This document shows, piece by piece, positions 2,365-58,100 of a stretch of DNA of 64,000 nucleotides. The stretch covers positions 8,958,334-9,022,333 of the forward strand of contig NC_045147.1 of NCBI RefSeq assembly GCF_008831285.2, read 5' to 3'. A program made the translations under genes and the position numbers. How positions within the stretch are numbered: position 1 is the stretch's first letter; each line of letters starts with the position of its first letter. Source of the DNA: Nymphaea colorata (taxonomy: Eukaryota; Streptophyta; Magnoliopsida; Nymphaeales; Nymphaeaceae). The notes beneath the pieces were generated by a model. The model had not been told where the DNA came from. It did no database searches and saw only the letters and a program-made list of their open reading frames with translations.

Positions 2365-5300
2365 ATGCTGCTAAATCAGAGTCTCCGCACTCTCTTGCCT
2401 CGTTCCGTGAGGCATGCTATCACTTTCTTCGGCTGTCACTTTTCCTCGGTCGCCGGAGAAGCATCCTCGCCAGTGCCCATCTCTTCCGAGACATCGTCCA
2501 TCGCGTGGCTCCGGGTACTTCTTCAGCTCTGCCACTGGGGTGCCGTGCGTTCTGTAAGCAATATAAGAATATAACCCAAAAGTAGGGGAAAAGGTCTCCT
2601 TAAAGAACTTAAATCTTCATTGTTTTTGTTCCAATGCTCATTCAAGAGAGTTTATGGGGATTCCATTGGTCCTTATGAGCATGCCTTTTGTGGATCAATG
2701 TCGAAAAACTTATATTGTAGTTGCAAAGCTTGGGTGATCTTCCTAGCGTGATTTGGCAGCCTTGGTGAAATTGCGAGTGACCATTTTCCAGTTCCTGATT
2801 TTTCCAGTGGTTCTTGGAGATCCTTATTGTTGAAAACGTCAAGATACTTTGCTCTAGTATAAGTTTCCTCTTGAACTTCGAAGGCCAGAAAAACTTTAGT
2901 TAGAGCATGGATACATAATCATGAGACCTTCTGCTGGAGTCCTTTTCTCTAGTATAAGTTTCATCTCTTTCTGCTCCTTCCTTTAAAACAAAAGCAAAAT
3001 CATGAGACCTTCTGCCGAGTCCTTTTCTGAAGTCTAAAAGTATTTGGTACTTTTAACATTTGTTCTTTCTTTTTTGTTCTTGGGGGATGATAGACTGGAA
3101 AGACGCAAAAGACTCTTGCTAGGGAGATTGTTATGTCTGGAAAGGGTCTACATTCAGGAGTCGACGTGGTGGTAAGATTATTTCCAGCTAAGGCGGGTGA
3201 AGGAAAGTACTTCGTTCTTGGCGACAATTTGTCTATCGTTATTCCGGCCTGCATCAATTTTGCTGTGGAGTCTGCACTTTGCACCACTTTATCCCGCCAA
3301 GGGATGAAAGTCAGAACAACTGAACATTTACTTTCAGCACTAGAAGCCATGGGAGTCGACAATTGTCGGATAGAGATGGTGGGTGGTGACGAGGTAAGGG
3401 AGACATGTTGTTGTTTGGCTTACCATTTTTTTAGAGAAGTAGTAGTTACAGGTATTGAAGCCGTTACTACTATTATTGCCACCTTTAATACTTCTATTCG
3501 TATATTTTCTTTTATGGAGATGGAAATCAGACTTGAAACTAGAGAACTAGCTTATGATTGTGATGCACTTGAGTGCAAGAAAAGTAGACACGAGTTCTTC
3601 TTGGAAAAAGTATAGTTAGAGTTGCTATGAAGTGTCCATGCATTGTTTAAGCTTTGTATATACGGAGTCAGATGAGGAGTTTGCAAATGGCATATTCATA
3701 TGAATATAATGATGCTTCGTTTAAGATAATCCACTATTTCTTGAAATTGCAGCAATTGTTGTCCTTGTAGATCCATGCAACAAATATAGTCTTGGATGCT
3801 TTCTGAGATGAGGAAATAGTGATTGCTAGCATTCATAATATACCCATTGCTTGCTGCAATTAAACTGAAATTCATAATGGTTGCCTATCTTCTTTTTAAG
3901 AGGAAAAAAAAGAAACGTAAATCTTTTTTGCAGGTTCCGTTATTGGATGGTTCAGCAAGAAGATGGGTAGATGCAGTTGAAGAAGCTACTCTATGCGATG
4001 CTGTTGATGACTACGGCAGATGTATAGAGAAATTGGCACCCTTTGTTGTTGAGCCGGTTCACATATTGTATGGTGATTCCTTCATAGCTGCATATCCTTC
4101 AGAAAAGATTCACATTACATATGGGATAAATTTTCCACAGGCAAAGTGATTTCTTTTGGCTTATTAATTGGCTTGTGATTTGCCGGCTTATTCCATTTGA
4201 TGTTCTGCTATACATAATTATAATTATTCCTCCAGAATCTTTCTGAAGCATTGTAAGAATAACTTTGGTACATTCCAAAAGGGTCATTCCTTCCTTTTAC
4301 AATATTATAGATAGACTCTAGACTTCATAGCCTTAGGGGGAGGGGAGGAACCAAGCACCTGATTCTAGGTAATGCACAAAGCTCCTAGGGAGGTAGGTAC
4401 CTCAGAAGCTTTTACAAGACCTGCTGATGGTTGAGGTATTCGAAAATTTGTTGATGCTTCTACCAAAATTTCATATAGTTACCATTTATCAGGACATCCA
4501 AATTTCTTGTACATTCGGTATAGATTCCAAATCTTCTGTATATAATTCCTTCTTCTGATCTGATATCAACAGTCTAGGAGCACAGGAGTTAAAACCAAGT
4601 GGGCTCCAGAGATCAAAGTTACTTGGAGCACTAAAAAATGTCTTACATCATAGGGGCAGTTTAACACGGATATTTTCGTACTTAATCATACACTATTAGC
4701 ATGTATTTTTTAATGTAGGTTTCCTGTGCACCACTGAGTTGTGCTGGAGAAGCATTTTCTTGATCAGCCTAATTTGCAGAAAACATTCCAACCGTATAGG
4801 CTTTCCTTCTATATGCGAATAATTGGTGCACAGGACCCTATCTCAGTCTAAATTAACAGTGCAGAATACATCACAAGATAAGCACGCCGGGTTGCACTTG
4901 GCAGCATATGATCTCAGTAGAGAGAAAAAGAGAGGACAAAGAAAGAGGGATGCCATGGGATAAAGTATAATACTGTAGGTGTGTTGGAGAATATTATGGG
5001 GCATATCCCAGTTCGCTCGTTGAGCTGGGGGATTCCCAGCCGTTGATGCTTCCTGTTGGCACTCCAACCTGCGGCCCAGAATCAGCGACATCCATCTGAG
5101 AGACATGCACTACAAGTGGCCACGGCCCCTCTGACTTCTTATCCAAAACCGTGCAGTTCATCCACATTACATGTGGCTGCTATTGTCATGGTCCATGTCA
5201 TGTGAGTGAATCCTGGCATGGGATTATCACTTTTGTGACAAATGGGCCCAAACTACTGGGGCCTTGCTCGGCCCAATTAGTTATTGCATTGGGTCAAGCC

Positions 5301-8300
5301 AGGTCCCTATATATTGAAGAAGTTATAAAAAGGATGAGATGCTCAGCGAAGAACAACTATTGTACACATTGTTATTAATTTAATATCTGATGTGTTGTCC
5401 ATGTGCAAGATAATATTAAATTATTTTATTGTCTTAATAATAATGTTTTTTTATATAATTTATATGGGTGGATACTCGACAGAAGGTCTCAGCTGCTACC
5501 CATTTAATCCCATACTTGACCCAGCCCAAAAATTAAACCAGCCGGTCGGGCTGTGTCCAAGCTAAATATGGCCTGGCCGGGCCCGATGTCCAGACTTACT
5601 TTCAAGTCGAGGAAATTAATTTGTTCAATTAAGTCCATTTCTTTTTTCTGTCTGGACCATTTTAATATTTCTTTTCTTATGATATTTGAAAGCCTGCAAC
5701 AGGGTAAAAAGATTAAAGCTGTATACATATTTGTTAGCAAGCAACCAAGGAAATTCTGAATGATGCTTATGTAGACATTCAATATTTTGTGGTTTCAGGT
5801 GTCTGCTATTGGCTGTCAGTGGTTTTCTTGCTTCCCTATGGACAAATTTGTTTATGTGAAAGACATCTCCAGTGCACGAACATTTTGCATTTATGAGGAG
5901 GTTTATATTTTAGTGCTTATGCTTCTGTTTCTCCGCCATCATATCCATCCAAAAGTTTATGATTTTCCTGTAACAAAATAATTCATGCTGTGTAACAGCA
6001 ATTACTAAGTTGATCTATACTTTTTATTATGTCCTTTTCTTTCTCAAGATGTTTAAAATGGGTATGCTTTCATCAACGTGTTTTACATCCCCAACGTGAT
6101 GAGGCCGATAGTTTCATTTCAACTGCCTCACGTTAGGGTTTATGAGTTGCATATATTGATGAGTGAGTGTGTACACATGTGCTTCCATGAGTTGATACCT
6201 AATTCTTGTTACATTTATTTATAATTACTGGAGTAGGGTGTGTGGTTTTCTTTTTCTTCTTCTTTTTTTTTTTGTTGTGGGGGTGGGTTGGGTTGGGGGG
6301 TTGCTGTTAATACTTTAATTATAGATGCTGTTGAGATTTGGGGATGGTAACACAATATTGAGGATACGTTGGTATAGTTCTGTTGTATGTAGTTCTCTAT
6401 GTATGTGTGCTTCTATGATTTACAACCTATATGTCTTGTTATGAAATCTTGGAATGGTAACAAAATATTGACGATATGTTGGAACAGTTTGGGTGAATGC
6501 ATGCATGCAAATTTTTATAGACGTTTCATAGTCTGCAATTTTTTATTCAATTAAGTCTTGTTATGGATAGGGATCAGCCTTGGTGCAAATCATGATAGAA
6601 AGCAGCTTATGAGCAGCATGGTACATAACACAACATATAATATGATGTACTAAGTTACGTAACATAACCATGAAAAGAAACTGTTGAATTAGAAGACTTT
6701 AAGTTTCTATGTGGTTCTTTGCAATCGTTAGGAGTTCTCTTTAAACGTTCATCTATTTTTGGTTGATGTTATTTGTAAGTCTCTACCTCTGCCCTAATCT
6801 CTTTATTATTGAGATTAGGGTTAGTAAATAACAAGTTATTCCCTCTCTAAGACTGTTGGCTATAACATGGTATCAGAGCGGGCGATGTGACTCAGGCTGC
6901 CGGCGACCATCCTTCTCTTCTCAGGCGATATTTCTTCCTCTTCTTCTCCTTCTTCTCTTCTTTCTCCCCCTCTCCTCTGTCGTCTGAGCTGGTCGAGATC
7001 CATCAACAAGGAAACTGTGTGAAGGAGTTTGTTCACGCTCTGAAATATGTGTGAATAGACTCCAGCCGTGGATATCAACATAAATATATATTGGCGCAGA
7101 TGTGTGGGAGTCTGCATTGGTTAACATCTTATGGACTGCCGTTGTTCTATGATCAAAGCAGCCAAGTGGAGGACTGCTCTCTATGAATGCTGCGGTAGTC
7201 AATGCTGTAGATTTTTTTTGTCTTATTTGATGATTCGTGGAGGATAGGAAACGATAATCTGCTGATGTAGCAGTGTTAGATGCATTAAAAAGCAAGTCTT
7301 TGTTGGAGGAGATAGCTCAAGTGGTTGTGGATTAGTCACGGTTATTCGTGGTGTGGCTGTTAGCAGGTGGACAGAAATTTGCTATGGAGTGTTGCGCGTT
7401 CTGTTAGCAGGTGGACAGTAATCTGCTGCTGCGGAGGTATTTATACTTGCTTGGAAGGAGTGCTGCTTTATCCACACAATATCGTTACTTCTGCTGTCTG
7501 GTTATTTATAATTTTGTTTGGAAGAAGTGCTAGACATCTACATGATATTGTTTACTCCTGTTGTGTGGTGTTGGCAGACTGTTTATTTCTGATCAGTCTT
7601 ACTCTATATATTCCTCTTTGTTTTTGGGCTGAACTCTTGTGGACAGATTTACAATGACGGAAAATCCCAAACCTGATTCATCCCATGAGTTTAAAATTAG
7701 AGGAAATCCATTCTCTTATGGCTCTGCTGTAAAGTTAGATGGATCGAACTATGAGATTTGGTCCCGTGTGTTTATGATGTCTGTGATTGGACATCGGAAG
7801 GAGCATGTTATAGAAGAAAATGAGCCTATGGAGAACAGTGGAAAATATAGTTCATGGAAGGAAGATAATAATATTGTCATGTCATGGATCATGAATAGTG
7901 TGCAACCACAGATTACCTCTATTATTGCATACTATACCTCTGCTAAACAAATGTGAGATTTTTTGAAACAAACATACTCTAATGATAAGAATGTTAGCAA
8001 GATCTTGTAGGTGGAGGAGGAATTACTTAATTTGCAACAGGGCGACCAAAGTCTTTCTCAGTACTTCGCTTCCATTAAGTCAATCTATGAAAGACTTAAA
8101 GTTTTACGTTCCCTATGTCCAACATGCCACAAAGGTCATGGTGAACAGTCTATGGGTGCATAGTTTCTTCAGGGTCTCTCTCCCAATTATGCAGTAGCAA
8201 AAGCGTAGATGTTGGCTGGAGCAGAAATCCCTGACCTAGCTGAGGCTTACAACAGACTCAGTCGTCTTGCTGTGACCCTTTTTCCGCCTTCCAGTGATGT

Positions 8301-11300
8301 TCATGTCTCAACCTTGGTGGCTTCAGGAGGTCATGGACGTAGTTTCTCCAAGGAGAGGGGCATAGGTCGAGGGTCAGGAGGAGGTCGGGGGAGATTTCAG
8401 TGCACCTACTATGGGAAAATAGGGCATTTGGAAGACAGATGTTAGAATAAACATGGTCGTCTTTCCGCTGCATCCCTAGGAAGAGGTGTTGTATCTAAAG
8501 GGCAAGAATTCATTGCAGTTTCATATTGGATCTGTCTAGGCAGCTTGATCAGTAGTAGAGGGTCTTTATCTTCTTCCCATCCTGAGACTGTGACTATGAA
8601 ATATCAACAAGTCAGAGTATGAACAGTTTTTCTCACACAGATCTATTCAGTCGTCGGCCTCCACAGTTATGATAGACAATGCTATGTTTGTCAATACTGC
8701 TCCACATGATATAGGTACTACTTGGATTATTGATTCAGGAACATCGAGACACTTTTGTAGTAGACCCTTTATGTTTACCGTGCTACACACATTACCTCAG
8801 ACACGTCATGTGAGACTTGTAGATGGCAGGTGGTCTCATATTATGAGTTATGGAGATATTAAGATTTCTCAGTCTATGACAATTCCTAATGTGTTATATT
8901 CTCCTAAGTTTCCACTAATCTTTTATCAGTCGGACAATTGACTAATGATTTACATTGTCGTGTTACATTTAACTCTCGTTTATGTTCATTTCAGGACTTG
9001 CAAACTGGGAAGACGATGATTGGTGGAGGCTATGAGAAAAGAGGCATCTACATCCTGTCTGATTCTGTGGGTGTTGCAGCTTCCTCGACTTTTTCATTGT
9101 CCTCCTCCTTCTAGTGGCATCTCAAACTTGGTCATCCATCTGTCTCCAAGATCCGTCACCTACTTCCTCATCTATCAGTACCAGAATTGTTCCAGTGTGA
9201 AGCCTGTCAACTTGACAAGGACACCCGTAGCAGTTATTCATCAAGTCTTAGTCCGTCCAGTTGTGGACTATTTGATCTTCTTCATGTTGATGTGTGGGGT
9301 CCTAGCAGAGTTGCTAGTAGATCTAGATTTCGTTATTTTCTTGTCATTGTTGATGGTTACTCTCGAGTCATTTGGGTTTTCCTTTTGAAAGAAAGGTCTG
9401 AAGTCATATGTACTCTCAATAACCTTATTATTGAAATAAAGACCCAGTTTGCTATTCTTGTTAAAAGCATTCGCACTGATAATGCTTTTGAGTTCAAGTC
9501 ATTTACCTTAATGAAATTTAACTCTGATAATGACATTTCCCTTCAGTTTACTTGTCCTCATACCTTCCAGCAAAATGAAGTAGCTGAGTGAAATCGCAAA
9601 CTTTTAAATGTGGCGTGTTCCTTAATGCTTCATACTCATTTACCTACGGGCAAATGCCATCCTTACTGCCTGTTACTTGACCAACTGTTTATCCTCCATA
9701 GACAACCAGGTTCTCATTAAACTTATGCACCCACAACGACCCTTGTTTCCAATAGCTCTCAAAGTATTTAGTTACACATGCTTTGTTCACATCTTTGGAC
9801 CCACACGTGATAAATTGGTTGCTCAAACAATTAAGTGTATCTTTATTGGCTACTCCAGAAATCATAAAAATTACAAATGCTTTGACCCCTTGATTCAAAA
9901 AGAGTATATCAGTGCGGATATCATTCTTTGAGTCTCAGCCTTATTATAGGCTCACTCCTACCTCTACTGAGATGCCACAATCATCTGACCCACTACCTAT
10001 TCCTCCCATTCCATTAGAGTCATTCCCATGTGAGTCTCCTTCTAGTGATTTTCCTTATGTGGTTTCCATGTTTCATAATCCTCCGTTGGTCTACACACGT
10101 TGATAGGACCCCTCTCATAATCCTTCCCCAACCTCTTCTCAAAAGGTGAGTATACCTAGTCCATCTGAGCCCACTATAGGTATCTCTGATCTTGTCAGGT
10201 CTTACTTATTGCTCTTCGCAAAGGCAAGCGACAATGTACTCTGCATCCTATATCTCATTTTGTCTCTACTGACGGTGTTAGTAAAAGTATGCAACAGTTT
10301 ATTCAAGCTCTGACTGTCCATACAGTTCCTACTTGTCGCCAACAAGCTTTATTAGATACCCAGTGGAGACAAGCTATGTAAGATGAGATGGATGCCTTAG
10401 TTCAGCGAGGCACCTTGGAACTTATTGATCTTCCTCCTGATTGTGACATTGTTGGCTCCAAGTGGGTATTTACAGTGAAATATAATTCTGATGGTTCTGT
10501 GGAAAAATACAAAGCTTGGTTGGTTGCTAAGGGCTACACGCAGACTTACGACGTTGATTTCTTTGAGACTTTTTTTCTTGTTGCCCGATTGAGAACCATT
10601 CGTCTTATCATCTCCGTGGTTGTACACCATGACTAACACATGTATCAACTTGATATCAAAAATGCCTTTTTGTATGGTAATCTCGATGAGACTGTCTATA
10701 TGCAAAAACCACCAGGTTTGAACGACAGGAGGAGTGTGGAAAAGTGTGCAAACTGAAGAAGGCTATTTATAGACTCAAGCAGAGTCCTCGTGCGTGGTTT
10801 TACAAGTTCTCTGAAGTAGTCTCAAAGTGTGGCTTTGCGAGATCCCCTCTTGATCCTCTGTTTATCAAGAAAAATTCCAGGGGTATGACCATTCTAGTAG
10901 TTTATGTTGATGATATTATCATGACAGGTGACTCCGATCAAGAAATTTTTGATACAAAGTTGTTTCTTCAAAAACACTTTGTGACGAAAGATCTTGGTCA
11001 ACTATGATATTTTCTTGGGAATAGAGGTTGCTCGCAACAGGGAGGGTGTAGTTCTATCTCAACGGAAGTATGTTCTTGATTTATTGCAGCACACCGGGAT
11101 GCTAGGAGCTAAACTGGCCAATCTACCTATGATTCCACGCATACATCTTCATGATGACCAATCAGAATTAGTAGATTCTCGATCATACAGATCTCTTATC
11201 GGGAAACTTCTCTATGTTACTATGATCAGACCAAGCATTAGCTTTGCAGTGGGGAAGCTAAGTCAATTCATGGAAAGACTTAGGAAAGTTCATTGGGATG

Positions 11301-14300
11301 CAACTGTAATGGTGGTCAAATATTTGAAATCGTCTCCAGGTAAAAGACTTTTGTTTACAAAAGGTAAGACTTTGGAAGTGGAAGCCTATAGTGATGCTGA
11401 CTATGTTGTGGCTAAGTCGAAGACAAGAAGTCTACCACAGGATTCTGTGTATTTGTGGGAGACAACCTTATATCCTGGAGAAGCAAAAAGCAAGGTGTAG
11501 TGTCAAGATCTAGTGCAGAATCTGAATACAGAGCTATGACTCAAACTGCCCCTGAAATGACTTGGGATAAATCCATGCTATCTAGCCTAAGTGTGTCAAT
11601 TCCTCTTCCCATGAAGATGTATTGTGACAATCCAACAGTCACATACATTGCAGACAATCCAATTTTCCATTTGAGAACTCCATTACATTTGGGATCTTGT
11701 TCAAGGAGGAACCATAGCCACTATTCGTGTATCATCTGAAGATCAAACTGCAGATGTCTTCACCAAACCTCTTCTTATTGGTGATTTCTCTAGATGTTGT
11801 GACAAGCTGATGATTAATATGTATGCTCCAGCTTGAGGGGGAGTGCTGAATTAGAAGACTTTAAGTTTCTAGGTGGTTCTTTGCAATGTTTAATATTTAG
11901 GAGTTCTCTTTAAACATTTCTATATTTTTTGTTGTTAATATTTGCAAGCCTCTACCTCTGCCCTAATCTCTTTATTATTGAGATTTGGGTTAGTAAATAA
12001 CAAGTTATTCTCTCTCTAAGATTGTCGGCTGTAACAAAAACAATACAATGTGCCCTTGAAACTAGTTTCGGGTGTACAACTATACCATATAGGTTGTAAC
12101 TTTTGATAGACCATCTTGTCTCTTACCTTATGGTATGATACAGGATGTAACTTATGTTGCATCTTGGAAACATAAAAGAATGTCAAAAAGGTCTTTCCTT
12201 TACTGTGTGAAAGGCTTTCTTATACATTTAAAGCAAAAAAAAATAAAATTTAGGGCTGATTCCATTTAACAAATTGGGAGCTTACATGGTTTTCCTTGTA
12301 AGGGGCCTTTTTGTCTTCAAAAATTAAAAAGGCAAATTTTATGACTATAAGAAGTTGTCAAGGACTAAGTCATGCATAATGTAGAGCTATTGATTTTCTA
12401 TCCATTTAACTATTGGGAGTAATTTAAGTTGTCAAATTTGATTTTGTTTAACGAAAGTGTGCATGTTGTATAGCATATACTTGCCATTTTTTATGTTTTT
12501 GCAATTTATTTTTTCTCATAGAGATAAAAGTTTTTCTCATTGTCCCCAGTCTTTTCTCATTATTGGTATTGTTGCTAATTTGGTAAATTTCTAGTTAAGG
12601 ATGTTCATTGACTCGAGGCAGCTCGGGCTCAACTTGAACCCGCTCAGTTAAACTCAAGTTGAGCTCAGCCCGTTTAGTAAAAGATTTGAGTTTGAGTTGA
12701 AAAATGAGCTCGATTAACTTAACAAGTTGAGCGCGAGCTAGGCAGGCTCAGCTTGACTAAGCTTGATTAAGCTTGCAGAAAGAAAATATATAAAACACGC
12801 TGCACCATATTGTCACAAGTGGAAAGTTACCCCAATGGGTTTCCTTGTGGCTGACAACCTTGACGTTCAAGGTTCCAACATGGGCATCTTCAGTCATATT
12901 AAAACCAATTTTTTAATGAATGGTTTGGCTCAGCTCCAACCGAGGTTAATGAACGGCTTGGCTAAGCTCAAGCCAAACCTCGGCTCAAGCCTAACCGAGA
13001 CGAATTTGAGCTTTTAAGCTCAAGCTGAGCAGAACTGGAGCTAGCCAACTTGATCTCGACAAGCTCGATTTCTGGCTTATAGTGCTTGAACCGAGTTTGA
13101 GCCAGCCCAGGTTAGGTGGACCTTGGCTTGTCCTGCTTCTTGCTTGTTGAATTCTTATATCTGCAGCAGGGCTGGAGCCAAGGGGTAAGTGGGGTTGGCA
13201 GGAGCCATGGCCTCCACCCCGCCACACACCAACCCCCATAAACCCCCAACCCACCCCCCAACCCCTTCAAATGTGTTGTTTTCGTCCCTGTAAAGATTTT
13301 CAAAATATATATAATGGCAGTCGGTTCCTAGACTGTTTGGCCCCTTTAAGGGAAAAACCCTAGCTCTGCCTCTAATCAGTCGTCTTTTTTGGTCCAAGCT
13401 GGTCTATTCTCTGGGATTCAAATCTAAAGCTGTTTGATTAAGATAGACCATGCTCTTTCAATCAGCATATTTTTGAGGCAGAACGTGTGTATTCAGTATT
13501 TTTCTTTTTGTTGGTTGCAATGTTAATCCTTTGAACTAGAAGATATTAGAGTCGTGTTATAGTGCAAGCTTTGTTGGCAAAGAATCACACATAGATGATA
13601 TGTGATTCAACTGTTTCACTTTGGTTTTATTTGTCTTCTTATTGCAGATCAAAAGAATGTTGAGTCATGGCCTTGTAAAGGGTGGTTCACGTCAAAATTC
13701 CATGATCTGTAGGTTAGCTAGCTTTCTTTTCTTAACTTTCAGATGGTGTCTTTGCAATGTCAGTTGGCCATGCTTGGTGCGGTACTGTTTGTTTTCACGG
13801 GCAACTTTTGTTCTCTGAAATCTGCAATTGTTCTTAGCTCATTGCAAGGTGATTCACTAGAAGAACTCACAACAAAGGCTTTTCATTGCAAACCATGCAG
13901 TACCATGGTGTATATTTGCATTATCATTTAAGAATATTTCCATTTGGGCCTAATTTTTCGCCATAATTTTGAAAATTGGGGCCACATTTTGAGATTTCCT
14001 GAAAAAGGGCCATACATTTCATGGAAACTGTCAGCTAAGAGCCTGGAGTGAACTTTCGGTAACTTGAAAAACAAAACAAAAAAAAAATGATAAAATTGTA
14101 AAAACGTAATTGTAGAAAGTACTAAAAGAAATTGCAACTAATGTTTGCTATGTTTCAAATTAAAATGCACTCCAGGCCCCTATTTGACTGTCTAAAATTT
14201 AAATGAAGCATGCTGTCCTTTTTTGGAAAAGCTGAAAGGGTGGCCTTTTTTTTGGAGTTATAGGCAAAAGGTAGGCCTGAAAATGAAAATTTCCCTATAA

Positions 14301-15136
14301 TTTATTAGTGGAACACATGCTGCGCTCACACACATGTGGATGCTGACCCTTGCTTTCTTTCTTTCCTTTCTTTTTTAATAAATTAATTGTTGCTTGCACA
14401 TTCTCTTATTATAGTGCACATAGAGGCTGGCTCAACCCACCCTTGCATTTCCAAAATGAACCTTGCCGACATAAAGTTTTAGACCTCATAGGGGATCTCT
14501 CTCTTCTTGCACAATATGGCAATCAAGGGCTTCCTGTGGCACATATACTTGTCTATAAGGTGGGTTACTTTTTTGTATTTTAACAATTTCAGCATATAGA
14601 AAGTACAACATCTTGTGGAAGTTTAGACGACACTGATGGATCTTGTTTATGTGACAACATGCACCACATATGAGCACTTTGGAAAGCATGGTATTGATTA
14701 TGAAGAGACTTTCTAACTCTATACTGTATCATGATTGATGGATGGCATTTGCATCCGTTCATTTTAGGAAATGGCTATTGTTAAAATATAAATCCTTCAC
14801 CAACACGTTGAAGAGGAGTCTCTTAGGATTCCACCTCCTTGTAAAATGTGTTAAGATATTTAATATCCTTGTAACATGTGAAGAGTCTCCTAGGATTCTA
14901 TGTTGTAGTTAATATCCTTGTTATATGTGAAGTCTCCTAAGATTCTATGTTGTAGTTAATATCCTTGTAATATGTGAAGTCTCTTAGGTTTCTATGATGT
15001 AATTAATGTCCTTGGAGCTTGTGAAATCTCCTAGGATTCTACGATTGGAGACTCTTAGAATTCTGGAAATGGGATTATAAATAGAGGCTGTGCAAACCAT
15101 TTTGGCTACGGCTTCTTCTCTTCAGTTTCTTCTTGT

Positions 15137-15189
<53 letters not shown>

Positions 15190-16591
15190 GCGTGAGTACT
15201 ATTTTCTGGTTACAGATATTGGTGCTAGATTTCTATCAGCTATGACATGATTTTAGACAATGCACACACAGACACACTGTTTCCAGGCAACTTCGGGATC
15301 AGGCACCTCAAAAAATTTGTAGTCCTTATATTTTAGTTTGCCTGAATATATTTTAATGCACTCAAAATTGCTTATTTATTCTGGTCCATGACTATGTTCA
15401 AGTAAAAATTCAATCTTAGATCTTCTTCCATCAAGTTTGTATTATATATAACCATTGATTTCTTAAACTGCACAGAAAGCATACTTAAGCATGAATTATG
15501 CCTGATTTAGAGCATGGTTGTCACTAAAAATTGAATAAAGATTACGTAGACAAGGTTGGATTAAGCAAGAACTTGTGCTACTATGTTTTAAGTGGTCCAT
15601 GATACGGTACGTTGGGCTCTCTTGTTTGTGTTTATTTGGGCATTCAATTTTTTATTGAACAGTGTGGGTTTATTTAGCATAACATATACATACCACGTTT
15701 GTTTGTTTACTTAACTTTAATGAATGCATCATACCTGTGGAGCCATTCATTGGGACAAAAACCAATGCATCATAAAATTGTGACTTTGAAAATCAATAGT
15801 TCACAATTAATGAAGATGGAGTGCTTAAAGGTAGTTCACATGATCATATTGATTTTTGATGCATGAAAATAGTAAACAAATCCTGCTAAACATGATCAAG
15901 ATATTGGCTATTCTTGATAAACGATGTGCAATTTACATGCCGTAGATTACAGATCAGTACGTTGAACCTTCAAATGTAAACAGATACAACGTCGTCTATT
16001 TCCACATAGGCAAACTTATTGCCAATTTGAACCTGCTATGGTTTGGACAGTTTGGCATCTACAGTAATACAGTTTTCATATGCTTGATCATTGTTTTAGG
16101 TTTAAAATTGTTGGCAAAAGTTGTCAGAAAGTTATGCCCTTAATACACTTGCTCTATCTGAACGTGAGGAATTTTCTGCTATTTCTTGCATGCATACCTG
16201 CTTTCTTTCCTTGATGATGCTTCTGATTGTCTTAGCACTGTGTTATTTCTGACCTTGTGAACGCATGACATAATATATACGTGATTAGGCCTATTATATT
16301 TAAACTCTTTTATTCATGAACACCTTTCAGTTTTTACGGTCATTTTCCTGCTTTCTTTTCTTTGGAGATGGATTTTTTTTTTTGTGGGGAAGTTGAAAGT
16401 CATCTATTGCTCCCCTTCTCTAATTGTCATGACGTTCTCTATTGACCGGTTGGTTGTTCAGTGTGACTTTTGTTTATTATTTTTTCATTAAAAATTTGGA
16501 GATTTAAATAAATGACATAATGTGGGAATTTTAGGGTGGCCATGATCTGCATCATAAACTTTCTTGCGCCCTTCTGGGCCATGTGAAATAA
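2365..16591 (+). CDS. LPXC: UDP-3-O-acyl-N-acetylglucosamine deacetylase (plant LpxC), seven exons
   Basis: Exons by eye: 2365-2553, 3094-3393, 3934-4140, 5799-5900, 13648-13712, 14415-14559, 16535-16591. They join in frame to 354 codons plus TAA. LpxC is the zinc hydrolase that deacetylates UDP-3-O-acyl-GlcNAc, the committed step of lipid A-type synthesis; in plants this pathway is mitochondrial. Residues 1-63 are rich in Ser, Arg and Leu and almost free of acidic residues, like a mitochondrial presequence. Catalytic Glu140 and zinc ligand His141 lie in [16 protein letters not shown]; zinc ligands His307 and Asp311 lie in [12 protein letters not shown]; the general acid-base His339 is in the short last exon (GGHDLHHKL). 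All introns are GT-AG except intron 3 (GC-AG). The start is the first ATG after an in-frame TAG and has G at -3. Intron 4 holds copia element A and intron 6 a probable solo LTR, yet no exon is broken. The exact exon 1 junction (TCT|GTAAGC, phase 0) and the last exon are the least conserved calls. Confidence 0.87.
4141..4142 (+). other. Non-canonical GC splice donor of LPXC intron 3
   Basis: The exon ends in CAG and the intron begins GCAAAG. Joining 4140 to 5799 gives INFPQ followed by VSAIGCQW, the expected LpxC protein order. The nearest GT (4146-4147) would shift the downstream exon out of frame. Confidence 0.75.
4143..5798 (+). other. LPXC intron 3, no gene seen
   Basis: AT-rich intron sequence. 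Short stretches with repeated GGCCC/GGGCC words (about 5240-5300 and 5510-5600) may be transposon termini, but no paired ends or target duplication could be found. Small open frames on both strands here carry no recognisable motif. Confidence 0.4.
5901..6681 (+). other. First part of LPXC intron 4, upstream of the copia insertion
   Basis: Non-coding, T-rich. Two related short segments with 'gatatgttgga/gatacgttggta' (about 6360-6380 and 6470-6485) suggest a small old duplication. No RNA gene or open frame of note. Confidence 0.35.
6682..6867 (+). repeat. 5' LTR of copia element A
   Basis: Begins TGTTGAATTAGAAG and ends TATAACA, and matches 11844-12036. It contains a perfect 10-bp stem (6792-6801 with 6811-6820) that separates CCCTAATCTC from GAGATTAGGG. 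Confidence 0.9.
6868..6879 (+). other. Primer-binding site of element A
   Basis: TGGTATCAGAGC directly after the LTR, complementary to the 3' end of plant initiator tRNA-Met, the standard copia primer. Confidence 0.9.
7639..11838 (+). pseudogene. Decayed copia gag-pol of element A
   Basis: Order of pieces: gag (7639-8210, [17 protein letters not shown]), zinc knuckle near 8400-8443 where the second Cys is replaced by Tyr ([14 protein letters not shown]), aspartic protease ([11 protein letters not shown], about 8730), integrase (from about 9290; [23 protein letters not shown]), reverse transcriptase (10388-11100; [10 protein letters not shown] about 10906) and RNase H (to about 11830; [11 protein letters not shown]). 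At least eight stops or frame changes break it, for example at about 7954, 8008, 8443, 9589, 10378 and 11005. Element B shows what each segment looked like. It cannot encode a working polyprotein. Confidence 0.9.
11844..12036 (+). repeat. 3' LTR of copia element A
   Basis: Begins TGCTGAATTAGAAG directly after the purine tract TGAGGGGGAG and ends GTAACA. It is a diverged copy of 6682-6867, with a few extra bases near 11890. Confidence 0.9.
12042..13647 (+). other. Rest of LPXC intron 4, including an AGCTCGAGC-rich repeat
   Basis: Nothing coding is seen. From about 12600 to 13110 the DNA is packed with short alternating words such as GAGCTCGAGC, CAAGCTTGA and GCTCAAGC on both strands, typical of the subterminal region of a non-autonomous DNA transposon. 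A related block lies at 62320-62560. No clean terminal repeats or target duplication could be fixed. Confidence 0.4.
14779..15214 (+). mobile_element. Probable solo LTR with internal ~47-bp tandem repeats, in LPXC intron 6
   Basis: The segment starts TGTTAAAATATAAATCC, ends GGTTACA, and is flanked by GCTAT and GATAT (4 of 5 match). From about 14812 to 15060 it holds about five imperfect copies of a ~47-bp unit built around 'gtctcctaggattctatg' and 'taatatccttgt'. A TATA-like GATTATAAATAGAGG follows at about 15072 and then a CT microsatellite (15146-15182). Repeats upstream of a TATA box are a common layout of LTR U3 regions. No internal retrotransposon genes or second LTR are nearby. It could instead be some other promoter-like repeat. 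Confidence 0.5.
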
Positions 16592-17963: not shown

Positions 17964-19205
17964 TCAACAGTCAGAGAAAAACGCCTCCCAGTTCACGTCT
18001 ACGTCCAGAGAAGGGAGCTTCTGCAACAGCAAGTTCTCGAACTCGCTCCCTGATGGACTGGTGGGATCGTCCTGCAGGTTGGTATTCGGGGCCGGAGAAT
18101 GCCGTGAGGCGGAAGCCGTGGAGTCGCTGCCAGAATGCGACGGCGAAGAGATCTCAGGCTTCTTCGTTGCGGCTGCCGATTCACTGCTCCTGTTTTCAGG
18201 ACAACCCTGAAGAGAGAGATCAGCAGCAGGCTGCTCTGCTATAGACTTGTGATCGGCAGGAGGGGTGGAGGACGGCCCTCCCCGAGTTGCCGCCGGAGAA
18301 GCCAATCCCTGATATACTGCCTTAAGCTTGGCGTCTATAGAGGATTGCAACAAGATCATGTTTGCATCATTGAAATTCTGGCGAGTGAGGCCAGGGAAAT
18401 TCAGCCTTGCAAAGTCCCCTCTGAGCTTGTAGGCTGCTCTATCGTAAGCCATGGCCGCCTCCTCGGCGGTATCGAAGGTACCTAGCCAGAGCCTTGTCCG
18501 GTTCCTAGGCAATCTGATCTCGGCCACCCACTTCCCCCAGTGCCTCTGCCTCACTCCCCTGTAGAGCTTGGCAGGTTTGGTTGAGGGACTGGCGGCGTTG
18601 GCGTGGACGACAGCACCGCCTCTGAGAGCTGCGACGTGCTTCATCGGCTGCATTCTTGGGGCCAGAAAGTGGAGGACCTCGCTCTCCCTTCCGTTCAAGT
18701 ACTGCTGTGGCTGCTGCTGAACGGTGGGAACGGCAGCCAAATTATGGCACTGTTGTTGGTACTGGGCCTGGATCCACTGCATGTGGTAAGAGGGGAGCTG
18801 TTGAAAGGCTACCCTTTGAGTAGGAATTGCAGAAACAGAATTCTGCAAGGAAGGGATGGAATTAGGCTCTGCAGCATCGACCCCATTGGTGAACATGGGG
18901 GTTGATGGAGTATTGGGCAAACTGAAAGAAGCAGGATTTGAAAAACACAGGCAAGTGGTAGATGAAGGAGAGAAAAGGGGAGCTTGAGGGGAACCGCCCC
19001 CGCTAGTGAAAGAACGAGAAGAAGAACTAAATGAAGAGGAGGGGAAGGAGGAAGAGGAGGGTAGGCCCTGTGATGAGTTCACAGAGGGGGAGGATGGTAA
19101 AGCACCTTTAATAAAAGGTTCAAGTGCTCCCATCAACTCCCCTTTGGGAGAAGGGTGATCTGAAGCTGAAGACCAAATGCTGTAGGGATCTATTGCTGCT
19201 GCCAT
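17964..19205 (-). CDS. AP2/ERF transcription factor, DREB A-6 (ERF group I) type
   Basis: Intact single-exon gene of 413 codons. One AP2 DNA-binding domain spans residues 215-272 ([48 protein letters not shown]). Val at domain position 14 followed by IRLP instead of IRDP places it in the DREB branch, subgroup A-6/group I, which includes RAP2.4-like factors. Members bind DRE/GCC-type promoter elements in the nucleus and act in drought, cold, light and wounding responses. Residues 39-82 are Ser-rich, 134-169 are Gln-rich with the motif [16 protein letters not shown], and the acidic C-terminus [21 protein letters not shown] looks like an activation motif. The start is the first ATG of the frame and lies in a MAAAIDPYS context typical of this subgroup. 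It is convergent with LPXC. Both strands around it show overlapping open frames that are shadows. Family is certain; the exact orthologue is not. Confidence 0.93.
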
Positions 19206-28639: not shown

Positions 28640-30532
28640 ATGGCAGATATGGAGGAAAATGAATCTTTTTCATCTACTGAAAAGGAAGTTGAATTTAAGA
28701 TGAAAAGAACTTCAATAGTATGGAATGACTTCGCATTAGTACAATTTAAGAAAAAAAAGTATGCAAATTGCAAGCATTGTGGTGAACTATTAAGTGGACA
28801 TAGTTCTAATGGTACTAGTCACTTAAAACAACACAGAGATATATGTGCTAAAAAACAAGTTCTTGATAAAAAACAACGAACTTTATCATTTGAAGTTAAT
28901 GAATTTGGTGTCACTTCTTTATGTATGGAGGCTTTTAAAAAATGTATGGCTAAGTGTATAATAATGCATGCACTTCATTTCAGTTTTGCAGAATATGAAT
29001 ATCATAATAATCATTTAAAGGCTTGCAATTCAAGGTTTGTTTCATTCTCTAAAAAAACACTTGCAAAAGAAGTTCAACCCATACTGAAAAAATGAGATAT
29101 TAAGTAGTTATAAATAATTATGTGCAGCGGGTTTTTCATTGACATTTGATGTGATCCTCACGACAGACGTTAGGATACTTATGCTTGACAAACCAATATA
29201 TTGATAAAGATTGAAATTGCAACTTTTATATACTTAATTTTATATATGTGTCTCTACCACATAATGTAAGTTGTATATGTGATATTTTATCTTAGTGCAT
29301 TACTATTAATTGAAAAATTCAATTGAAGTTATTTTTTTTACTGCTGATAACTCTTTAGCAAATGATAGTGGAATAAGTTTACCAAGAAGGACCGTAGAAA
29401 GAAAAAATAATATTTCATTTCCATTATGAGGGGAATACTTTCATATTCATTGTGGTGCACACATTATAAATTTCATATATAAAGATGGTACGAATGATAC
29501 AAATGATACAATTTCAAATATTCGTGACGGTGACAAATATATAAGGGGATCACCAAAACGACTACATGCTTTCAAGCAATATATAAAGGTAATGGGTTTG
29601 AATGAGAAAAAAAGTTTAAACTATGATGTTCATACTCGATGAAACTCTACATTTATAATGATGAAAGATGCATTGTTATTCAAGAGATGTCTTCCAACAT
29701 TTGACATCATGTGATCCTAATTATGGATGTTTGCCTTCTAAGGATAAATGGTGTTATGCATTTGATTTATGTCAATTCTTAAAGTTATTCTATAATGCTT
29801 CGACTAAACTGGTAACATCTAATCTTATTTTTGAAGAAATTTTATCAACTTACCATTATTTGTGCATGCATCATGAAACAACAAATGAAAATATAAGGGC
29901 ATTGACGTACAAAATGCAAGAAAATTTTGACAAATATTTCAAGAGATACAATATTCTCTTTGCAATTGTAGTTGTTTTAGATCCTAGGTTCAAGTTGTCA
30001 TATTTGAAGTATTAGCTTGACAATTTGGATAAACCTGATGCAATGATAAATATAAATTTATAAAGAGAGCATCCTTTATCAATTATATGCTGAGTACAAA
30101 AGCATGCATAATTACACTAACACAAGTAATATGCAAAGGAGTAATGCATCTACTAATACCATGACTGCACCTGAAGAGTATAGAAGTGTGGATAGATATG
30201 AGCTCAAAGCATACTTCAGCTCTGTATCTCATGTAGTGGCTGACACAGATCTAGACAAATATTTGATTGATCCAATAAAAGAAATTACACATACTACAAA
30301 CTTCAACACATTATCTTGGTGGAAGACAAATGAAAACTAATATAAAATTTTAACAAAGACTGCTCGAGATGTATTTGCAATTCCTGTACCTACAGTTGCT
30401 TCAAAATCTACATTTAGTATATCAAAAAGAATTCTTAATGATTATCGATGTTCAACCACTCCTGAAAATGTTGAATTATTAATGTGCATACATAGTTGGA
30501 TTCATGATCAATGTAACTTGTGTAAAATGTAA
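28640..30532 (+). pseudogene. Broken hAT transposase with BED zinc finger
   Basis: Residues 1-85 of the first frame form a BED finger (WNDF, then CKHCGELLSGHSSNGTSHLKQH, then C). After damaged DNA, 29440-29660 reads CGAHIINFIYKDG and IRGSPKRLHAFK, then VHTR-stop-NST, where the usual Trp codon of TRWNST is TGA (29640-29642). 29668-30015 matches the RNase H-like hAT region (ENIRALTYKMQENFDKYF, VVLDPRFKLSYLKY). 30104-30532 is the C-terminal dimerisation domain (YELKAYFSS, then LSWWKTNEN, an in-frame TAA at 30338-30340, then FAIPVPTVASKSTFS). Several stops and frame changes plus missing N-terminal catalytic sequence make it a pseudogene. Terminal inverted repeats were not located. Confidence 0.88.
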
Positions 30533-41192: not shown

Positions 41193-41414
41193 TGTTGAAT
41201 AAGAAAAGTTTTATGTTTTAGGAGGTTCCTTGTAATATTAAAGAGTTATAAGATCTCTTTAATATTTTCCTTATTTCCCATTGAGTTATTTTGTAAATCC
41301 CTTTTTACCCTAATCTCTTTTATAAAAGAGATAAGGGTTATCGTAATAAGATGTTCTTTTAGTTCAATCTCACGGCAGCTTCTCTCTCTCACTCTCTTCT
41401 TCTCCGCTGCAACA
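41193..41414 (+). repeat. 5' LTR of element B
   Basis: TGTTGAATAAGAAAAG to CGCTGCAACA. Contains an almost perfect inverted repeat at 41308-41337 (CCCTAATCTC paired with GAGATAAGGG, one mismatch). Confidence 0.95.
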
Positions 41415-42121
41415 TGGTATCAGAGCTACAGACGTGACTGGAGACTTGAAGCACACAGCCAGCGCGCGGACGTGACGCACATCGTCGGTGATCCTCCGCC
41501 TCCTTTCAGGCTTGATCTCTTCTACTTCCTCCGTTTCTTTCTCCTTCACCTCTCGCTTGTTCTAGTTGCTGTTTTCCAGCAACAGAACAGTGTGGAGGAG
41601 TCTATTCACGCTAGGAGAGATGCGTGAATAGACTCCAGCCGTGGATTTTTTTTCAGAAGTGTATATAGTATTGCAGCTGTGTGGGAGTCTGCGCTGATTA
41701 ATCGCCTATGATTTGATATGTTATATGATCAACGCAGCCAAGTGGAGGACTGCTATCTATGACGTCTATGGCAAGTTTATGTTGATGGTTTTATTTGCTG
41801 TCGTTATTCATGATCTGTGAAGGATAAACTGTGGTACAGCAGCGTTAGATGCATAAATAGATAAGTCGTTGGTCAGTGCAAACAATACAAACAGTGGGGA
41901 TTCGTTTTCAGTTGTGGGCTTGCTGATAGCAGCGTTTTTCTGTCTTCAGATTGCAGTCCTCTTTGTTGTGGTATTGCTGTCAACAGTTGGACAGCAGGTT
42001 GATTGTTTCTGCGCATCTAACTTTGCCGTGTGGGACGTCTGTTCTTGTTGATCAGTTTCTTTTTCAATAGAAATATATATATATATATATATATTCTCTT
42101 GCTATTGGTGGTTGATCTCTT

Positions 42122-45100
42122 GTGGACAGATTTATGATGGCTGAAAGTAATAAATCTGATTTTTCTCATGAAGTTAAAAGTGGAGGAAATCCATTTTTGT
42201 ATGGTTCTACTGTAAAGTTAGATGGATCTAACTATGAGATTTGGTCTCGTGTGTTTATGATGTCTGTGATTGGACATCAAAAGGAGCATGTTATAGAAGA
42301 AAACGAACCTGTTGAAAAGAGTGGAAAATATAGTTCATGGAAGGGAGATAATAATATTGTCATGTCATGGATCATTAATAGTGTGCAACCCCAAATTGTA
42401 TCAACTATTGCATACTACACCTCGGCTAAGCAAATGTGGGATTTTTTGAAACAGACTTACTCGAATGACAAGAATATTAGCAAAATATTGCAGGTAGAGG
42501 AGAAACTACTTAATCTGCAACAGGGTGACCAAAGTCTTGCTCAGTACTTCGCTTCCCTTAAGTCCATCTCTGAGCGACTTAAAGCATTACGTCCTCCATG
42601 TTCAACATGTTATAAGACCCATGGTGAACAGTCTATGGTTGCGAAATTCCTACAGGGTCTCTCCTCTGAATATGCAGTAGCAAAGGCTCAGATGCTGACT
42701 GGAGCAGAAATCCCTGATCTAGCTGAAGCCTACAACAGGCTTAGTCGTCTTGCTGTGACCCTCTCTTCACCTGTCAGTGATATCCATGCCTCTGCCTTAG
42801 CAGCTTCAGGAGGACGTGGACGCGGTTTATTCAGGGGAAGAGGCATGGGCCGTGGGTCAGGAGGAGGTCGGGGGAGATTTCAGTGCACTTATTGTGGGAG
42901 AATAGGTCATTTGGAAGACAGATGTTGGGATAAACATGGTCGTCCTACTGCAGCGCCATCCTTAGGCAGAAATGTTACATCAAAGCTGGGGAAGAACTCT
43001 TTACAGTCTTCTATTGGAGCGGCCCAAGCAGCGTCATCAGTAGTAGATGGGTCTTTATCTTCTTCTCAGCCTGAGACAATGACTGTGAGTATCAATAAGT
43101 CAGAGTATGAGGACATTCTAGCACACAGATCTACTCAGCCATCGGCCTCCACAGTTATGACTGACAGCGCTATGTCTGTTGACACTATCTCACATGATAC
43201 AGGTACTACTTGGATTATTGATTCAGGGGCATCGAGGCACTTTTGTAGTACGCCTTCTATGTTTACTGTGCTACACTCACTACCTCAGATACATCATGTG
43301 AGACTTGCAGATGGTAGATTTTCACCCATTATGGGATATGGAGATATCAAGATCTCTCAATCTATGACTATTCCCAATGTGTTATATGCTCCTAAGTTTC
43401 CCACAAATTTGTTATCTGTCGGACAATTGGTTAATGATTTACATTGTCGTGTTATGTTTGATTCTGGTTTATGTTCATTTCAGGACTTGCCAACTGGGAA
43501 GACGATTGGTGGAGGCTATGAGAAAGGGGGCATCTACTTCCTATCGGATCCCGTGGGTATTGCAGCATCATCGATCACATCGTTGTCCTCCTCGTTCTAG
43601 TGGCATCTCAGACTTGGTCATCCATCTGTCTCCAAGCTCCGTCATCTCCTTCCACATCTCTCCTTACCAGAGTCGTTCCAGTGTGAAGCTTGTCAACTTG
43701 GCAAACACACTCGTAGTAGTTATTCATCGAGTCTTAATACGTCCAGTTGTGGACTATTTGATCTTCTTCGTGTTGATGTGTGGGGTCCTAGCAGAGTTGC
43801 TAGTAGGTCAAGATTTCGTTATTTTCTTGTCATCGTAGATGATTATTCTCGAGTCACTTGGGTTTTCCTTTTGAAGGAAAGGTCTGAAGTCGTATCTACT
43901 CTCAAAAACCTTATTATTGAAATAAAGACCCAGTTTGGTATTCTTGTTAAAAACATTCGCACTGATAATGCTTTTGAGTTTAAGGCATCTACTTTAATGA
44001 AGTTTTACTCAGATAATGGCATTTCTCCTCAGTTTACATGTCCCCATACTTCCCAGCAAAATGGAATAGTTGAGCGAAAACATCATCAACTTTTAAATGT
44101 GGCTCGTTCCCTTATGCTTCATACTAATCTCCCTGCATATTTTTGGGGAGATGCTATTCTTACTGCTTGCTACTTAACCAATCGTTTACCCTCATCCTCC
44201 ATTGATAACCAGATCCCCATTAAACTTGTGCACCCACAAAGATCCTTGTTTCCAGTGGCTCCCAAAGTATTTGGTTGCACATGCTTTGTTCATATTCTTG
44301 GACCCACACGTGACAAATTGGGAGCCCAAGCCATTAAATGCATTTTCATTGGCTATTCCAGAAACCATAAAGGCTACAAATGCTTTGATCCCTTGACTCA
44401 AAAAGAGTATATCAGTGCGGATGTCACATTCTTTGAGTCTCCACCTTATTATAGCCTCACTCCTATGTCTACTGAGATGCCACGGTCTCCAGACCCACTA
44501 CCTATTCCTCCTATTCCTTTGGAGTCGTTCCCTGTTGAATCTCCTTCGTCTGTTGTGTCCAAGTTTCGTGATCCACCGCTGGTCTACACACGTCGACAGG
44601 ACCCTTCTCATAATCTTTTGCCAACCATTTCTCAGGAGGTAAGTACATCTGAAGCGCATAACCCTACTCATTCTGATCCTTGTCAAGACTTACCTATTGC
44701 TCTTCGCAAAGGCAGACGGCAATGTACTTTACATCCTATATCTCATTTTGTGTCTACTGATGAGGTTGGTAAAAATATGCAACAATTCATTCATGCTTTG
44801 GCTGCTCATACAGTTCCTACGTGTCACCAGCAGGCCTTATTAGACACCCAATGGAGACGGGCTATGCAAGATGAGATGGATGCCATAGTGCAGAGGGGCA
44901 CTTGGGAACTTGTTGATCCTCCTCCTCGATGTGATATTGTTGGCTCAAAGTGGGTATTCACAGTTAAGTATAATTCTGATGGTTCTTTGGAACGATACAA
45001 AGCTCGATTGGTTGCTAAGGGCTACACGTAGATCTACGGTGTTGATTTCTTTGAGACCTTCTCTCCAGTTGCTCGGTTGGGAACCATTCGTCTTATTATT

Positions 45101-46358
45101 TCTGTGGCTGTCCACCATGACTGGCACATGTATCAACTGAATGTCAAAAACGCCTTTTTGTATGGTGATCTTGATGAGACTGTCTATATGCAACAACCAC
45201 CGGGATTTGAACGACAGGGGGAGTGTAGAAAAGTGTGCAAGCTGAAGAAAGCTATTTATGGACTCAAACAGAGTCCTCGTGCGTGGTTTCACAAGTTTTC
45301 TGAGGTAGTCTCACAGTGTGGCTTTGTGAGATCTCCTCTTGATCATTCCTTGTTTATCAAGAAGGCTTCCCGAGGTATAACTGTTCTTGTGGTTTATGTT
45401 GATGATATTATCCTGACGGGTGATTCTGATCAAGAAATTTTTGATGCAAAGCTGTTTCTTTAAAAACACTTTGTGACGAAAGATCTGGGTCCTCTACGAT
45501 ACTTCTTGGGAATAGAAGTTGCTCGCAATGGGGAGGGTGTTGTTCTCTCTCAATGGAAGTATGTTCTTGATTTATTGCAGGACACAGGGATGATAGGAGA
45601 GAACATCTTACAATAAATCAAGAACATACTTCCATTGAGAGAACATACTTCATGATGACCAAACAGAATTAGTGGATTCTAGATCTTACAGATCCCTTAT
45701 TGGAAAACTTCTCTATGTTACCGTGACAAGAGTAGACATTAGTTTTGCAGTGGGAAAACTAAGTCAATTTATGGAAAAACCAAGGAGAGTTCATTGGGAT
45801 GCTGCTTTGATGGTGGTTAAATATCTGAAATCGTCTCCTGGCAAAGGCCTTTTGTTCACAAAAGGCAAGACTCTGAAAGTGGAAGCCTATAGTGATGCTG
45901 ATTATGCTGGCTCAGTAGAGGACAAAAAATCTACCACAGGATTTTGTGTATTTGTGGGAGGCAATCTCATATCGTGGAGAAGCAAAAAACAAGGTGTGGT
46001 GTCAAGATCTAGTGCAGAATCCGAGTACAGAGCTATGGCTCAAACAGCAGCAGAAATGACGTGGGCTAGATCCATGCTATCCAGCCTAAGTGTGTCAATC
46101 ACACTTCCCATGAAGATGTATTGTGACAATCAAGCAGCCACACACATTGCAAACAATCCAGTTTTCCATGAAAGAACTAAACATATTGAGGTGGATTGTC
46201 ATTACATTCGGGATCTCGTTCAAGCAGGAACTATTGCCACTGTTCATGTTCCTTCAGAAGATCAAGCTGCAGATATCTTCACCAAAGCTCTTCCTATTGG
46301 TGATTTCTCTAGAAGTTGTGACAAGCTGAGCATGTTTAATATGTATGCTCCAGCTTGA
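42122..46358 (+). pseudogene. Copia gag-pol of element B, three stops and one rearrangement
   Basis: Gag at about 42122-42870 ([17 protein letters not shown]), zinc knuckle [14 protein letters not shown] near 42886, aspartic protease WIIDSGASRHFC near 43212, pre-integrase WHLRLGHPS from 43601, integrase 43778-44450 ([34 protein letters not shown]), reverse transcriptase 44850-45600 (YVDDIILTGD near 45397) and RNase H 45672-46355 ([10 protein letters not shown]). In-frame stops are TAG at 43598-43600, TAG at 45029-45031 and TAA at 45461-45463; the last two sit where element A has Gln. Near 45600-45655 a local inverted duplication replaces about 40 bp and shifts the frame. Otherwise the gene is close to full length. 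Confidence 0.93.
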
Positions 46359-46365
46359 GGGGGAT

Positions 46366-46587
46366 TGTTGAATAAAAAAAGTTTTATGTTTTAGGAGGTT
46401 CCTTGTAATATTAAAGAGTTATAAGATCTCTTTAATATTTTCCTTATTTTCCATTGAGTTATTTTGTAAATCCCTTTTTACCCTAATCTCTTTTATAAAA
46501 GAGATAAGGGTTATCGTAATAAGATGTTCTTTTAGTTCAATCTCACGGCAGCTTCTCTCTCTCACTCTCTTCTTGTCCGCTGCAACA
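46366..46587 (+). repeat. 3' LTR of element B
   Basis: Same length as the 5' LTR; three substitutions seen (near its start, its middle, and 11 bases before its end). Confidence 0.95.
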
Positions 46588-46679
46588 TATAAAAAATGCC
46601 TAAAAAGGACTCTATCTCTAAAAACTAGAAAACTACCAAACTTGAACATAAACTTTCTAGTTTCAACACTTCCCTTCAA

Positions 46680-52862: not shown

Positions 52863-53140
52863 TGTTAACATATCATGTGTAGGGAACCGGGTCTGGATCC
52901 AGACCCGGTCCCATGGGCACGGGTACCGAGAGTGGCTCGGTACCCTAGGCGGTTTTCCCTCTTATTTAATCCCACTTATGGTGTAATTGTTGATTAAGTG
53001 GAATAACATTTTCTCTCTCCTAGGGTTGCGGTTGTGCCCCTAGGTTAGAGCTTCTCTGTGGTTTTTTACCTCTCTTTGAGGTTTTCCATGTATATTGTGT
53101 GTTCCTTCTCTTTCCCTCCATCTTGGTGTGTGTTTCTACA
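52863..53140 (+). repeat. 5' LTR of element D
   Basis: TGTTAACATATCATG to GTTTCTACA. Contains a perfect 22-bp palindrome (52887-52908) and a perfect 10-bp stem with 5-base loop (52921-52930 with 52936-52945). Confidence 0.95.
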
Positions 53141-53229
53141 TGGTATCAGAGCCAACGCGTGAGAGATTGTTGGTGTGATAGTCGTGTTTCCGCCGGTTTT
53201 TTTTGTCGCTACTGTTTCCGCCGGTTTTT

Positions 53230-53490
53230 TCTGCTGCTGCTGCACCGTCGCTCTCTGCTGCGCCGCCGCCGTCCAGCGCTGCCAGCTGCGCCGCCACCGT
53301 CCAGCGCTGCCAGCTGCGCCGCCATCGTCCAGCGCGGTTGTTCTCTGCTGCGTTGCCACCGTCCAGCGCCGCCGTCGCCCACTTCAGCGCCGCCGCCGTC
53401 CAGCGCCACCGCCGTCCAGCGCCACCGCTGCCCACTGCCGTCGCTCTCTTCAGCACCGCCGCCATCCAGCGCCGCCGTCGTCTAGCGCCG
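53230..53490 (+). repeat. GC-rich minisatellite in the leader of element D
   Basis: About a dozen imperfect copies of a 15-27 bp unit around GCCGTCCAGCGCC fill the space between the primer-binding site and gag. All frames on both strands stay open here because the repeat lacks AT; these frames are not evidence of genes. Confidence 0.85.
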
Positions 53491-53545
53491 CTGCATCTTG
53501 TTTGTCGTCTCTGGCGCTGGGTATTCTTTCTCCTTGGTGATTGTG

Positions 53546-57828: not shown

Positions 57829-58100
57829 CATATCATGTGTAGGGAATCGGGTCTGGATCCAGACCCGGTCCCATGGGCACGGGTACCGAGAGTGGCTCGG
57901 TACCCTAGGCGGTTTTCCCTCTTATTTAATCCCACTTATGGTGTAATTGTTGATTAAGTGGAATAACATTTTCTCTCTCCTAGGGTTGCGGTTGTGCCCC
58001 TAGGTTAGAGCTTCTCCGTGGTTTTTCACCTCTCTTTGAGGTTTTCCACGTATATTGTGTGTTCCTTCTCTTTCCCTCCATCTTAGTGTGTGTTTCTACA
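57823..58100 (+). repeat. 3' LTR of element D
   Basis: Same length as the 5' LTR; five substitutions, one of which shortens the palindrome by one base pair at each end. Confidence 0.95.

Follow-up and report, generated by a model that had tools for sequence, protein, structure and literature searches.

A predicted LPXC gene of Nymphaea colorata carrying an old copia retrotransposon in its fourth intron

The LPXC locus and its predicted protein

We analyzed a 64,000-nucleotide stretch of the Nymphaea colorata genome (NC_045147.1, positions 8,958,334-9,022,333), referred to below as the window and numbered from its first base, and found a gene, LPXC, for a plant homolog of the bacterial enzyme LpxC. 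The gene spans ~14.2 kb of the plus strand (2365-16591) and holds an old copia retrotransposon in intron 4. UDP-3-O-acyl-N-acetylglucosamine deacetylase, the enzyme named LpxC, catalyzes the second step of the lipid A-type pathway. As the original prediction had claimed, seven exons totaling 1,065 bases join in frame with consistent phases, giving 354 residues and a stop codon without any internal stop. The parts of the locus are as follows.

2365-2553, plus strand, exon 1: ATG-initiated open frame, donor TCT|gtaagc
3094-3393, plus strand, exon 2: start of the LpxC domain, Glu140 and His141
3934-4140, plus strand, exon 3: GC donor at its 3' end
4141-5798, plus strand, intron 3: GC-AG type, CAG|GCAAAG ... 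TTTCAG|GTG
5799-5900, plus strand, exon 4: Thr260 and Phe261
5901-13647, plus strand, intron 4: 7,747 bases
6682-12036, plus strand (gene orientation), old copia retrotransposon: both long terminal repeats (LTRs) present, coding frames broken
13648-13712, plus strand, exon 5: supported by homology (bacterial LpxC alignment)
14415-14559, plus strand, exon 6: His307, Lys308, Asp311 and Asp315
14560-16534, plus strand, intron 6: 1,975 bases
14779-15214, strand not assigned, solo-LTR-like block: 436 bases, TG...CA ends, 47-base internal repeats
16535-16591, plus strand, exon 7: 57 bases, 18 codons plus stop, His339

The identity of the LPXC protein is supported by profile matches over nearly the whole family model. 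It matches Pfam PF03331 (LpxC) at positions 1-267 of 268 with an E value of 1.3e-76 (258.1 bits, cut-off 27) and the NCBIfam equivalog TIGR00325 at positions 3-273 of 297 (208.3 bits, cut-off 187.25), while two further LpxC models, one of them for the fused LpxC/FabZ type, scored far under their cut-offs. All 28 distinct sequences of solved structures that match the protein at E <= 0.001 carry LpxC enzyme names. A pattern search of genome contigs for bacterial relatives gave 43 matches, none of which was confirmed.

To place the active site, residues were mapped through the printed alignments to two bacterial LpxC of solved structure, from Pseudomonas aeruginosa (91 of 270 aligned residues identical; 6mo5) and Aquifex aeolicus (93 of 255; 1xxe). 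At P. aeruginosa positions E77, H78, T190, F191, H237, K238, D241, D245 and H264 and their A. aeolicus equivalents, LPXC has Glu, His, Thr, Phe, His, Lys, Asp, Asp and His, matching both bacterial proteins in 9/9 cases. The five residues singled out by the original prediction, Glu140, His141, His307, Asp311 and His339, are all kept, and their numbering was exact. With roles carried over from bacterial LpxC, His141, His307 and Asp311 are presumably the zinc ligands, and Glu140 and His339 the catalytic residues. Because these residues are kept and the frame is open, we infer that LPXC is probably functional.

Splice sites and terminal exons

The six introns measure 540, 540, 1,658, 7,747, 702 and 1,975 bases, 13,162 summed. 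Every acceptor is AG (6/6), and five of the six donors are GT; the remaining one, a GC in intron 3, was absent from the text of the original prediction. We scanned this intron by combining GT or GC donors after positions 4080-4200 with AG acceptors before positions 5760-5839. Nine combinations kept the frame free of stops, each of them with a GC donor, and a GT donor was thereby rejected within the range tried (0/9). With the 4140/5799 pair, the LpxC sequence continues across the junction with no residue added or lost. Pairing donor 4140 with acceptor 5775 is also workable but inserts eight residues, and the remaining combinations likewise insert or delete residues. In a table of PMC7072748, 1.488% of plant splice-site pairs are GC-AG, so intron 3 is uncommon but ordinary.

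Exon 1 is the weakest exon of the model as judged from sequence, because no family match precedes residue 68, where the Pfam LpxC match begins. Its 63 residues form an N-terminal extension that contains 5 Arg, 0 Lys, 2 Glu and 0 Asp, and they could be a putative organelle-targeting peptide. It is thus possible, though we think it unlikely, that the gene is real and the model partly wrong, either because the true first exon is another one upstream or because exon 1 ends at an alternative in-frame donor after 2514, which would shorten the protein by 13 residues. Both donors (2514 and 2553) keep the frame, as this alternative requires, and it would also fit the late start of the family match. However, the donor after 2553 reads GTAAGC, nearer the usual donor consensus than the GTACTT after 2514, and the ATG lies in frame with an upstream stop at 2323. 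A different first exon would be compatible with an otherwise intact LPXC gene; the two readings are not mutually exclusive.

The short last exon, predicted at 16535-16591 with 18 residues and the catalytic His, was borne out by both frame and homology. The LpxC match extends into it, reaching residue 346-351 of 354, so exon 7 is backed by homology and not by frame alone. An alternative last exon, which the original prediction had named as an outcome counting against the model, did not appear: in the 10 kb downstream of exon 6, an AG acceptor followed by an in-phase (x)[AGS]GHx[LM] pattern, chosen post hoc, occurs once, at exon 7. The same search in 300 first-order Markov simulations gave a mean of 0.017 occurrences, a figure that is indicative only given the post hoc pattern, and it indicates that exon 7 is more than a chance match.

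Retrotransposon sequence in the introns

Intron 4 contains a structurally whole copia element, as had been predicted, although it is old and its frames are broken. Its LTRs (6682-6867, 186 bases; 11844-12036, 193 bases) are 86.5% identical and are accompanied by a primer-binding site, TGGTATCAGAGC, and a polypurine tract, TTGAGGGGGAG. The flanks GAAAC and AAAAC agree at 4/5 bases, an imperfect target duplication. An integrase (rve) match lies in the open reading frame (ORF) at 9187-9591. The stretch 10193-10540 aligns with the end of an ORF of a related copia in the window; there the ORF matches RVT_2 weakly, its 28.7 bits falling short of the cut-off of 31.6. Integrase thus appears to precede reverse transcriptase, the order of Ty1/copia elements.

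The related copia (42088-46531) aligns with the intron 4 element over 4,476 bases at 82.5% identity. Against its three ORF pieces, the intron 4 element gave 10 aligned segments with frame shifts within every piece and 14 stop characters summed, some possibly counted twice where segments overlap, with 10541-11170 lying outside the comparison. Because frames shift in all three pieces and stops are present, the element is dead. This relative belongs to a younger copia at 41193-46588 (plus strand), whose LTRs share 98.7% identity across 223 bases and which has long interrupted ORFs; further related copia sequence at 46645-49363 (minus strand) shares 69-71% identity with the intron 4 element.

The LTRs of the intron 4 element differ at 19/186 sites, a corrected distance of 0.110 substitutions per site. 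This distance corresponds to 4.2, 8.5 and 36.7 million years at 1.3e-8, 6.5e-9 and 1.5e-9 substitutions per site per year. A rate of 1.51e-9 was applied in PMC8626473. The element has therefore been resident for millions of years at each of the three rates tried. With LTRs only 86.5% identical, element frames broken and the flanking exons open, the LPXC frame appears to have been kept open while the copia decayed.

This history bears on whether LPXC is a recently silenced pseudogene, with clean exons but with transcription ended before the last exon by signals in the sense copia LTRs or by the intron 6 LTR. The copia does lie in sense orientation, and according to PMC4417168, genes with long intronic transposable elements (TEs) yield prematurely polyadenylated transcripts in Arabidopsis silencing-factor mutants. 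Yet over the millions of years implied by the LTR distance, 354 codons have stayed open and 9/9 active-site positions have been kept, and we regard a pseudogene as improbable.

The block in intron 6 had been predicted as a probable LTR, and this held in part. Its TG...CA ends and flanks (GCTAT/GATAT, 4/5 bases alike) fit the claim, whereas no second copy was found within the window at E 1e-8. Tandem 47-base repeats occupy 14817-15024, with a long CT run further along in the block. It is plausible from these features that the block is a solo LTR. The larger statement that the gene had been stretched by transposons also stood only in part, in that 5,791 of the 13,162 intron bases (5,355 + 436) belong to recognized transposons, while in the other ~7.4 kb no transposon was identified by window self-comparison and repeat searches run without a repeat library.

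Read-through from exon 6 into intron 6 would add seven residues and then stop, without His339, so retention of intron 6 or early termination would yield a protein lacking the catalytic His. Such a product raises the question of a transposon-dependent switch, in which full-length LPXC or this truncated form would be made depending on whether the intronic elements are silenced. RPP7 is among the Arabidopsis genes for which such dependence has been reported (PMC4417168). The same source reports that IBM2 and EDM2 are required in Arabidopsis for transcribing genes with intragenic heterochromatin, and that mutants of such factors show premature polyadenylation at several genes with intronic TEs; by analogy, IBM2/EDM2-like machinery may be needed for LPXC transcription. 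On the other side, an old dead intronic element could equally be passive. We consider a switch very improbable, and its specific form, in which the chromatin state of the copia and the LTR would choose between the two proteins, marginally more so. If true, it would tie transposon silencing to a lipid A-like pathway.

Several other features lie in the window. Convergent with LPXC, an intronless 413-residue ORF at 17964-19205 (minus strand) has an AP2 domain (E 2e-15) and is probably an ERF-type transcription factor gene. Upstream of LPXC, visual inspection of ~1-900 showed degraded pol-like coding remnants of a further retroelement, perhaps of the Ty3/gypsy type. A different copia element occupies 52863-58100 (plus strand); its LTRs share 98.2% identity across 278 bases, and its ORFs (261, 609 and 530 residues) include matches to gag, integrase and reverse transcriptase. 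A 151-residue ORF at 28640-29095 (plus strand) has a BED zinc finger (E 2.1e-5) and is possibly derived from a DNA transposon. An Rfam scan at gathering thresholds and a tRNA scan of the window gave no matches.

Interpretation and known systems

Taken together, the sequence very probably represents an intact plant nuclear LPXC gene with passive intronic elements that encodes a targeted zinc deacetylase. We infer its transcription, splicing, targeting and activity as a sequence of steps. The entire 14.2 kb would be transcribed and the six introns spliced out, intron 3 via its GC donor, with the copia in intron 4 and the LTR-like block in intron 6 carried as passive intron cargo. Translation would give a precursor with an N-terminal targeting peptide, and in the mature enzyme zinc would be held by His141, His307 and Asp311, with Glu140 and His339 acting as catalytic residues.

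Some observations weigh against this interpretation. Two further positions differ from P. aeruginosa LpxC, whose G58 corresponds to Val121 and whose M62, which lines the substrate pocket, corresponds to Leu125. The Arg of the GGSRQN motif in LPXC stands where both bacterial sequences have a hydrophobic residue (Leu, Val). Exon 1 is without homology support, and intron 3 belongs to a minority splice class. In addition, full-length TEs are apparently purged preferentially from Arabidopsis gene bodies (PMC4417168), and therefore a long intronic element is not neutral by default.

The value of the locus lies mainly in annotation. Its 57-base last exon, with the catalytic His, sits 2 kb past exon 6, and it is plausible, as the original prediction had warned, that annotation pipelines would overlook it. 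The GC donor of intron 3 and the 7.7 kb copia-bearing intron could likewise lead automatic gene callers to truncate or split LPXC. The locus also adds a further case of a conserved plant gene that apparently tolerates an intronic retrotransposon.

Among known systems, the closest are the plant LPXC genes of Arabidopsis and rice, which likewise are LpxC genes with an N-terminal extension; the gene described here differs in its long transposon-bearing introns. Arabidopsis, rice and other plants are reported to have at least six of the nine lpx genes (PMC3087551), and in rice, LPXC knockdown reportedly leaves plants less cold-tolerant (Islam et al. 2023, as cited in PMC12005169). Bacterial LpxC from A. 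aeolicus and P. aeruginosa share near full-length homology and the 9/9 active-site positions with LPXC, but at ~34-36% identity, and the N. colorata gene has introns and ~64 extra N-terminal residues.

The introns themselves resemble those of other plants in which LTR retrotransposons enlarge introns. In grapevine, large introns consist of >80% repeats, with copia outnumbering gypsy by ~6.5 to 1, and the authors of that 2011 paper regarded this as not yet seen in any other plant (PMC3058033); a 2021 paper then reported TE-expanded introns in magnoliids and Chloranthus (PMC8626473). In Arabidopsis, intragenic TE-gene pairs number only 241, and long TEs are under-represented in its genes (PMC4417168). 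Introns reach >20 kb in grapevine (PMC3058033) and >40 kb in Chloranthus (PMC8626473), and the 7.7 kb intron 4 of LPXC apparently differs from these in size only. A conserved gene whose 7.7 kb intron harbors a dead copia is thus not novel in kind and fits the pattern described for grapevine and Chloranthus.

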